Shown: positions 29,300 to 32,251 of the stretch, one piece after another
Layout of the letters: the number at the start of each line of letters is the position of its first letter
How positions within the stretch are numbered: position 1 is the first letter of the stretch
Made by a program: the position numbers and the translations under genes
DNA from: Acidovorax benzenivorans
GTDB lineage: Bacteria > Pseudomonadota > Gammaproteobacteria > Burkholderiales > Burkholderiaceae_C
Assembly: GCF_028680575.1 (NCBI RefSeq)
Contig: NZ_JAPCKI010000004.1
Coordinates: 62,001 to 126,000, forward strand
Length of the DNA stretch: 64,000 bases
Reading direction: 5' to 3'
The notes under the pieces: model-generated
Told to the model about the DNA's origin: nothing
What the model saw: only the letters and a program-made list of their open reading frames with translations
Database searches by the model: none

Positions 29300-32251
29300 T
29301 CAGCCCAGTTGCTGCGTGACCCAACCGGTCACCGAGGCCAGCGCCGCAGGCAACTTGGCAGCATCGGTGCCACCGGCCATGGCCATGTCGGGCTTGCCAC
29401 CGCCCTTGCCGCCCACTTGCTGGGCCACAAAGTTCACCAACTCACCGGCCTTGAGCTTGCCCACGCTGTCAGCGGTGACGCCTGCAGCAATCTGCACCTT
29501 GTCACCGTCCACAGCGGCCAGCACGATGGCAGCGGTCTTGAGCTTGTCCTTGAGCTTGTCCATGGTGTCGCGCAGGGTCTTGGCATCGGCGCCAGGCAGC
29601 GCGGCAGCCAGCACCTTGAGGCCCTTAACCTCCACGGCCTGGTTCACCAGCTCGTCGCCCTGGCTGGAAGCCAGCTTGCCCTTCAGAGCCGCCACTTCCT
29701 TTTCGAGCGCGCGGGCATTGTCCAGTGCCTGGCTGATGCGGCCGTTGAGCTCTACCACCGGCGCCTTGAGGGTGCTGGCGGCCTGGTTCACGGTGTCTTC
29801 CAGGTTCTGCAGATAGGCCAGCGCGTTGGCGCCCGTCACCGCCTCGATGCGGCGGACGCCTGCAGCCACGCCGCCTTCACCCACCACCTTGAACAGGCCA
29901 ATGTCGCCCGTGCGCTGCACGTGTGTGCCGCCACACAGTTCGCGGCTGGTGCCGATGTCGAGCACGCGCACGGTTTCGCCGTACTTTTCGCCAAACAACA
30001 TCATGGCGCCGGTCTTCTGGGCCGACTCGATGTCCATCACGCGGGCCTGCGTGGGCTGGTTGGTCAGGATTTCTTCGTTCACACGGCGCTCGATCTCGCG
30101 GATCTCGGCCGCTGTGACGGCGCCGTTGTGCGCAAAGTCAAAACGGGTGCGGTCGGCATTGACCAGGCTGCCCTTTTGCTGCACATGGCTGCCCAGCACT
30201 TCGCGCAGGGCCTTGTGCATGATGTGCGTGACCGAGTGGTTGCGCATGGTGGCGGCGCGCACCGCCGTGTTGACCTGGGCCTGCACCGTGTCACCCACGT
30301 TCAGCGTGCCCTCTTCGAGCGTGCCGTGGTGGCCAAACACATCGGCCTTGATCTTGAGCGTGTCGCCCACCGCAAAACGGGCCGAGCCACTGGTGATGGT
30401 GCCTTCGTCGCCCACCTGGCCGCCGCTTTCGGCGTAGAACGGGGTCGTGTCGAGCACCACCACGCCGTTTTGACCCGCCTTTAGGGCTACCGCGCTTGTC
30501 CCATCTACATAGATTGCTACGATTTTTGCAGTCTCTGCAAGATGCTCGTAGCCAGTGAACTGGTTGGCTGCACCGGTGTACTCCAACGCCTTGTCCATCT
30601 TGAACTTGCCGGCAGCTCGGGCCTGGGCCTTCTGCTTTTCCATGGCGGTGTTGAAGCCAGCCTCGTCCACTTCCACATCGCGCTCGCGGCACACGTCGTT
30701 GGTCAGGTCGAGCGGGAAGCCGTAGGTATCGTGCAGCTTGAAGGCCACATCGCCAGGCAGCACCGAGGCCACCTTCGGATAGGCGCGCCCCGTAACAGAA
30801 ACCGAGTAGCGACTTGCAATCCCGTCAATAACAGATTGGGCAATTGGCAGCTTCTCCCCCCAAAAGACTGCTATCGCATTGTTGAAACTCAATGTACGCG
30901 CAACATCCCGGGCAAAGCGCTCGACATCTGCTTCCCCAGCATCAGCATCGAAGAAGCGAACCAAGATATCGCCCTCAAGACTAATCCGACCGTCAAAGTG
31001 CAGTGTTTCATTGTCCGGAAGCAAATCAACAAGGAGATCAACTGAGACGGCACCTGTAGGCGAACTGGCCTCCAAATTGCTCAAAACTGGCCGACGTAGG
31101 TCCAACGCACGATCAAGAATCTCCATGCCGTTGGCCAGCGTTTCAAAGAAACGCTCTTCTTCCACCTTCAGCACTTCAGTGATGCGCTGCTCCTGCTCGC
31201 GCAGGGATGGGTAGGCGTCACCCATCAGGCGCACCAGATCGGCCACCAGCTTGTGAAAGAACGGCGTCTTCTTGCCCAGCTTGTACCCGTGGCGGATGGC
31301 ACGGCGCACGATACGGCGCTGCACGTAGCCACGGCCCTCGTTGCTGGGGATCACGCCGTCGCTCACCAAAAACGCGGTGGCGCGGATGTGGTCGGCGATC
31401 ACGCGCAGGCTCTTGTTGTTGAGGTCGGTCACGCCGGTCTCGCGGCCAGCGGCCTTGATGAGCGCATCGAACAGGTCGATCTCGTAGTTGCTGTGCACGT
31501 GCTGCAGGATGGCCGCCAGGCGCTCCAGACCCATGCCGGTGTCCACGCAGGGTGCGGGCAGCGGGGTCACGGCACCCGTCTCGTCCATGTTGAACTGCAT
31601 GAACACGTTGTTCCAGATCTCGATGAAACGGTCGCCGTCTTCATCGGGGCTGCCGGGAGGGCCGCCAGCAATGTGCGGTCCATGGTCGTAGAAGATTTCG
31701 CTGCAGGGGCCGCAGGGGCCGGTGTCGGCCATCATCCAGAAGTTGTCGGACTTGTAGCGGCCGCCCTTGTTGTCGCCGATGCGGATCACGCGCTCGGGCG
31801 GCAGGCCGATTTCCTTGGTCCAGATGTCGTAGGCCTCGTCATCTTCCTGATAGACCGTGGCCAGCAGGCGCTCTGGCGGCAGCTTGTAGACCTCGGTCAG
31901 CAGCTCCCAGGCCCACTTGAGCGATTCGCGCTTGAAGTAGTCGCCAAACGACCAGTTACCCAGCATTTCAAAGAAGGTGTGGTGGCGCGCGGTGTAGCCC
32001 ACGTTTTCCAGGTCGTTGTGTTTGCCGCCTGCACGCAGGCAGGCCTGCACGGACACCGCGCGGTTGTACGAGCGCTTGTCAGTGCCCAGGAACACGTCCT
32101 TGAACTGCACCATGCCCGAGTTGGTGAACATCAGCGTCGGATCGTTGCCGGGCACCAGAGGGCTTGATGGCACGACGGTGTGGCCCTTGGAGACGAAGAA
32201 GTCCAGGAAGGACTTGCGGATGTCAGCGACAGAAAAAGTGGGAGTGCTCAT
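29300..32251 (-). CDS. alaS: Alanyl-tRNA synthetase with an in-frame insert
   Basis: The 983-residue protein contains all AlaRS parts: catalytic core ([54 protein letters not shown]), tRNA-recognition helices, an editing domain with zinc ligands HSVTH and CGGTH, and C-Ala with a coiled coil. Usual length is about 870-880. About 111 residues (385-495, DNA 30767-31099) are extra, lying between GMEILDRAL and [20 protein letters not shown], which are normally joined by about ten residues. The insert DNA is visibly poorer in G+C. The reading frame is intact, so the enzyme is presumably functional. The ATG at 32251 is preferred over an upstream GTG. Confidence 0.95.
30480..30543. repeat. Possible decayed intergenic repeat inside alaS
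   Basis: On the plus strand CTACATAGATTGCTACGATTTT resembles the reverse of the repeat start (GCTATCAAAATAGTAGCATTTT), and CCGCGCTTGT lies where the hairpin half would be. It encodes [16 protein letters not shown] in an AT-rich patch, at a place that is normally variable in AlaRS. The match is weak. Confidence 0.3.
30767..31099 (-). other. In-frame insert in alaS (about 111 codons, lower G+C)
   Basis: The segment encodes an alpha/beta-looking stretch with hydrophobic strands ([25 protein letters not shown]) and helices ([27 protein letters not shown]). I do not recognise the family. It has no intein block A Cys/Ser start, no DOD or HNH motif and no terminal HN, so protein splicing is unlikely. 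No flanking repeats or target duplications are obvious. Base composition is about half G+C against roughly two thirds in flanking alaS, judged by eye. It sits at the surface of the tRNA-recognition region in known AlaRS structures. Confidence 0.7.

Follow-up and report, generated by a model that had tools for sequence, protein, structure and literature searches.

The window, by which we mean the whole stretch of 64,000 nucleotides, contains a single alaS gene, on the minus strand, with the following features:

29300–32251, minus strand: alaS (stop codon counted), encoding alanine–tRNA ligase with an inserted domain, 983 amino acids; identified by translation and by TIGR00344 (989 bits)
31100–32251, minus strand: N-terminal part of alanyl-tRNA synthetase (AlaRS), residues 1–384 (catalytic region and start of tRNA recognition); 99% identical to sister species G060 (381/384)
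30761–31099, minus strand: inserted cassette, residues 385–497, 113 codons; identified by comparison with congeners, low G+C and a homologue in genome G436
30770–30961, minus strand: confidently modelled core of the insert, about residues 431–494; strand-helix-strand-helix-strand in the AlphaFold2 model, coordinates by arithmetic
30728–30730, minus strand: Asp508 of HDTYGFP, 11 residues past the cassette; identified by alignment to E. coli AlaRS (3hxu)
29300–30760, minus strand: C-terminal part of AlaRS, residues 498–983 (remaining tRNA recognition, editing and C-terminal domains); 98% identical to G060 (476/486)

The alaS frame is open throughout, from an ATG to a single stop codon. Its product is an alanyl-tRNA synthetase, as judged by the full-length match to the NCBIfam profile TIGR00344, for which the curated cut-off is 457 bits, and the Pfam families PF01411, PF07973 and PF02272 match the AlaRS sequence that flanks the block on either side. 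The sister species G060 and G018 have an AlaRS of 875 residues, which bears out the original prediction of an in-frame extra block in an enzyme of 983 rather than about 875 residues. AlaRS, an essential enzyme, serves as a conserved marker. A second alaS was looked for in the window genome and none was found; the other two whole-protein matches were only partial, with low scores of 31 and 19 bits. Since the gene is single in the genome, it must be in use, and since this only copy is essential, the enzyme presumably works with the insert present.

The cassette stands where the sister species have the five-residue loop GGAKV, and runs LRRPVL...VASV before the sequence continues with LPGD. The insert had been correctly recognized from the sequence; its borders had been put at 30767–31099 (111 codons), and were measured here as 30761–31099 (113 codons). 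As had also been noted, the block is poorer in G+C than the other alaS sequence (0.528 vs. 0.633), and its GC3 is 0.504 compared to 0.832; the lowest windows of equal length elsewhere in alaS had a G+C of at least 0.56 and a GC3 of at least 0.699. This foreign composition supports the suggestion that the domain was recently captured. In the alignment to the solved structure of E. coli AlaRS (3hxu), the AlaRS match ends at residue 381 and restarts at 387, which places the block in a loop of the tRNA-recognition region. We take Asp508 to be the equivalent of E. coli Asp400, a contact of the G3–U70 identity pair; a search of open-licence PMC papers for the function of Asp400 gave no match. A six-frame search of the window's own genome with the insert returned the insert itself and one chance-level match (E 0.56), showing that the block is single copy and is not a dispersed genomic repeat.

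Searches of 47 genomes of the genus, including that of the window, gave a readable junction in 44 of the 46 others, the remaining two (G006 and G067) being cut. The 44 junctions comprised 29 loci that were opened and 15 that were judged by match coordinates. All but one of the opened loci (28/29) had the short loop ALDGGAKVLPGD or a near variant, and the 29th, in G026, had a different insert. A long insert was thus present in one of the 44 congeners, where it was unlike that of the window, and absent from 43. The window flanks were 0.82–1.0 identical to those of the sister species, and the flank comparison with the sisters revealed no clear imported tract around the insert.

A homologous block was found at the same site in G436, which belongs to the same family and another genus, and whose AlaRS has 990 residues. 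The two blocks are 61% identical over 113 residues. Over 112 codons, they differ at 40, 28 and 71 first, second and third positions, respectively, with 46 synonymous codon changes, a dN of 0.35 and saturated synonymous sites, a pattern which indicates that the block is both translated and under protein-level constraint. The homology extends over the whole cassette, with both ends in common at the same alaS site, and we refer to the pair as insert family I. A wide occurrence among relatives, which would have refuted the original prediction, was not seen: a profile made from the two blocks found G436 as the only other species in a sample of 399 family genomes, together with one chance-level match (the window's own genome was not among the matches listed). 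This latter match, from G405 (E 0.0067), lies in what we take to be a BON-domain lipoprotein, and was dropped because about 2.7 such chance matches are expected over 399 genomes.

In the genus of G436, 90 genomes were searched and 82 had a match, 79 of them uninterrupted; a long insert was present only in G436, while G766 and G784 had 24 and 22 additional residues at the site. In a tree built from 29 AlaRS bodies after removal of the inserts, G000 (the window genome) and G436 each grouped with their own insert-free congeners, and insert presence required 11 changes, all 11 of which were forced by starred branches. Because the congeners of both lack the block and the AlaRS bodies group by genus, the block is, on the basis of these comparisons, a horizontally acquired domain and not an artefact. 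The window assembly is a draft of 43 contigs, rated 100% complete, in which a chimeric join or a frameshift might be suspected. However, the gene is open in frame, no fault of the kind against which the original prediction had cautioned was seen, and the same-site homologue comes from an independent assembly, making an assembly error so improbable that it can practically be disregarded.

Inteins also occupy positions in conserved essential genes, and the block might likewise be removed, by intein-like splicing, as an RNA intron or through translational bypass, to leave a mature enzyme of normal form. We consider this very improbable. The block contains no Cys and does not end in His-Asn, and the intein set of N-terminal Cys/Ser, C-terminal His-Asn and +1 Cys/Ser/Thr was not found. 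No intein or Hint profile was among the Pfam and NCBIfam families matched by the whole protein at E ≤ 10, and 113 amino acids is below mini-intein size. Furthermore, the codon-position constraint described above demonstrates translation of the block into protein.

The insert matched no family in Pfam, NCBIfam, PHROGs or PADLOC, consistent with its description as a domain that could not be placed. The best match among PDB sequences was to a ribosomal protein (E 0.087), and a two-row profile reached a best E of 0.63. There was no match in plasmids or phages, or in pattern scans of GTDB genome contigs and viral contigs, which detect close relatives only and may omit the window's own records. An AlphaFold2 model of a 123-residue fragment starting at residue 380, calculated from the two-sequence alignment, had a mean pLDDT of 68 and a pTM of 0.63, and looks like the folded alpha/beta domain that had been predicted. 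Its core (model residues 49–112) is better defined, with pLDDT block means of 82–94 over model residues 51–110, except for one block at 77.

Foldseek gave no match to this model at E ≤ 0.001; the best E was 0.016, and the top row was a clamp-loader subunit. The top row from VIA-align was EcoT38I (Z 8.5, rmsd 3.8, 116 aligned), with a Z within the typical range of the tool. Of its best 50 rows, we take 43 to be either PD-(D/E)XK nucleases (21) or RPB5 (22), leaving seven others. The N-terminal domain of RPB5 is a non-catalytic member of the PD-(D/E)XK, or restriction-endonuclease-like, fold. In the insert model, strands and helices appear to follow one another and to pair as they do in this fold, including RPB5. 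However, no member of the fold was found by sequence search, the best Z was 8.5, and both the window and G436 copies lack a (D/E)xK in the strand following the Asp of HFDGRI. With moderate confidence, the model suggests a domain resembling the PD-(D/E)XK fold without its catalytic motif.

A query of 90 residues covering both flanks of the site matched 143 of 150 genomes of the family and, in a second and larger search, 392 of 398; 40 flagged genomes were opened, uninterrupted matches being left unopened. Long, non-repeat inserts of 70–132 residues were present in 12 of the 392 matched genomes (G000, G436, G164, G382, G251, G155, G323, G112, G268, G275, G395 and G462; the alaS of G268 is cut by a contig end). 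Together with that of G026, these make 13 long inserts, all of which are below their flanks in both G+C and GC3, the one in G462 only marginally so in G+C (0.632 vs. 0.638). The AlaRS of G462 (L117) has a long branch of 0.34 changes per column, and its 95-residue insert, with nearly native G+C, is perhaps old.

Of 276 genomes sampled across the class, 266 had a match, and no insert-like split match was seen among the matches listed. Twenty weak matches were re-searched and four loci were inspected, one of which, in G506 from another family, contained a 131-residue insert with a G+C of 0.41 at the same site. In the order to which G506 belongs (11 genomes, 10 with a match), G857 contained a 130-residue insert with a G+C of 0.37. 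The total is thus 15 long inserts in 11 genera, each lower in G+C than its flanks. Among 137 distinct AlaRS frames, some of them from one genome and many picked because of this site, all insertions of at least 16 residues were at the loop site, with the exception of one protein from G119 (L061), which has about 38 extra residues near AlaRS position 221–228, in the catalytic region. The alaS loop is therefore an insertion hot spot. The original prediction was partly borne out: it was right in proposing a foreign domain captured in frame, and missed the hot spot with its inserts in other bacteria, and regulation, inhibitor resistance or a protein contact, the roles that it suggested, are possible functions.

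Occupation of one fixed site across many genera, sporadic occurrence, low G+C, the size range of the inserts and the PD-(D/E)XK-like predicted fold would all fit a selfish origin, in which a PD-(D/E)XK nuclease cleaved alaS genes without an insert and was propagated by gene conversion, leaving the now degenerate inserts as relics of homing. We nevertheless regard such an origin as improbable. The window and G436 inserts keep the Asp without the (D/E)xK of the next strand, none of the other long inserts showed an intact motif on inspection by eye, and an element with no splicing part would burden the host protein.

The contents of the site appear to change rapidly. G155, G323 and G382 form one clade on the 29-row tree, and their AlaRS DNA is mostly 0.85–1.0 identical per 60 bases, while their three inserts, with G+C of 0.40, 0.47 and 0.34, are all different and lack overall similarity. 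Conversely, five members of different genera (G026, G164, G382, G251 and G112) share a C-terminal end of the type RDWxGLxL, and three of them also an AER start, around middles that are unlike one another (insert family II). This end motif had been noticed before its shuffle test, in which six pairs had at least four of the last nine residues in common, compared to a shuffled mean of 0.09, and none of 2000 shuffles reached this number. The N-terminal ends alone were weaker, with three pairs and 24 of 2000 shuffles. The window insert lacks the family II end and was in none of the pairs.

Neither pairwise BLAST nor hhalign indicated a common ancestry of the long inserts. With leave-one-out profiles, the number of shuffles out of 500 that beat the match was 0 (G155), 27, 36, 67, 132, 148 and 212 (the window), so that one of seven long inserts beat all shuffles. 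The order of strands and helices appears by eye to be alike in most of the long inserts, for which we do not claim homology. A single-sequence model of the G395 insert agrees with this order, at a mean pLDDT of 57; its fold search was mixed, with a designed binder as the top row (Z 7.5) and seven of the best 50 rows that we take to be nuclease-like or RPB5. The other inserts had only weak, unconvincing family matches in Pfam and PHROGs, and those tried had no match in plasmids or viral contigs.

The same site also holds repeat-like elements in frame in alaS, of the type PHPNPLPxGEG in G075 (L052), G274 (L083) and G311 (L091), and VRPEPVEG in G153 (L054). The G075 insert is a dispersed repeat with 76 matches in its own genome; there are 46 matches to it in G274, 64 in G311 and none in G153. 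Dispersed repeats at this site, which are surely no selected domains, show that the loop also tolerates ballast, and speak in favour of the main rival to a shielding or contact role: that this loop just happens to be the only point at which AlaRS accommodates additional residues, and that foreign or repeat DNA enters by illegitimate recombination, in-frame events surviving without any gain. The many short inserts of varied length at the loop are in keeping with such neutral tolerance, as is the scattered presence of inserts, whose clustering does not exceed that of shuffled labels (464 of 500 label shuffles were as low). Set against this are the protein-level constraint on the G000/G436 pair, with both ends in common, the family II ends kept over five genera and the compact core that is predicted for the window insert, a combination rarely expected of random DNA. 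Neutral tolerance therefore seems to us a possible but not a probable account of the locus.

Short inserts provide a view of how the cassettes might spread. An insert of the type ERSGSRxDPMGDV, with about 18 extra residues, is present in G090 (L055) and G295 (L085), which belong to one genus, and in G264 (L079), from another. In G264, the 180 bases immediately downstream of the insert site are ≈0.82 identical to G090 and G295, compared to ≈0.70 to its own congeners. This likeness to the other genus suggests that inserts can travel together with flanking alaS. Divergence near the junction, looked for after the fact, was seen in G436, G395 and G264.

The overall explanation that we favour, and hold to be somewhat probable, is a foreign folded cassette that AlaRS tolerates in a permissive loop and that has been passed between alaS alleles. 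The foreign domain would sit in a surface loop of the tRNA-recognition region and would persist as an additional domain of the mature enzyme. Its transfer from one species to another would have been that of an alaS allele, with recombination taking place in the conserved alaS sequence that flanks it on either side. Up to and including this transfer, the explanation, taken as one statement, is likely. Counting against it are the finding of only one homologue, that in G436, the repeats that other genera have at the site, the lack of a clear imported tract in the flanks of the window insert, the weak fold matches (none at E ≤ 0.001 with Foldseek, and a typical Z with VIA-align) and the failure of the long inserts to show sequence homology to one another. 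The least certain steps concern function: the PD-(D/E)XK-like fold without a catalytic motif might provide a contact or shield surface, and the fast replacement of inserts might mirror a rapidly changing antagonist or partner of AlaRS. Shielding by the cassette, which draws on the predicted fold, is a tentative proposal that we consider rather unlikely. A broader version is somewhat more doubtful, namely that the loop is a diversity locus, at which species exchange folded cassettes under diversifying selection because these shield AlaRS against a fast-changing antagonist, or link it to a fast-changing partner, such as a phage, toxin, inhibitor or kin factor. If true, the result would be an aminoacyl-tRNA synthetase whose specificity module can be exchanged.

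No account of such AlaRS inserts was found in the titles and abstract beginnings of open-licence PMC papers. The closest known counterparts are lineage-specific insertion domains such as BEAN and HABAS of bacterial RNA polymerase, an enzyme whose insertions are reported to be distributed in line with the Tree of Life (PMC11515920). The cassette is like BEAN and HABAS in being a folded domain in frame in a conserved essential enzyme that is not destroyed by it, whereas the AlaRS inserts are scattered among close species, are mostly unrelated at one site and have homologues across genera. The AlaRS inserts resemble inteins in interrupting a conserved gene in frame at one fixed position, in their sporadic occurrence and in their horizontal spread; in contrast, the AlaRS block has no splicing residues or intein domain and seems to be retained in the protein. 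Rickettsia palindromic elements are repeats inserted in coding frames. They too are foreign in-frame inserts in housekeeping genes, and some relatives have repeats at the AlaRS site, but the window insert is single copy and protein-constrained.

That one AlaRS site holds different foreign domains in close species and the same one across genera would make it an exchangeable slot even in the core of translation. Alleles with, without and with a swapped insert form natural pairs for testing synthetases as targets in bacterial conflict, and the permissive site could be used for AlaRS engineering.

Two minor observations were also made. In G698, there were two alaS-like matches on two contigs, which might reflect either an additional alaS copy or contamination. 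In the window, an antisense open frame of 167 codons on the plus strand (30542–31045) overlaps the insert, probably by chance.
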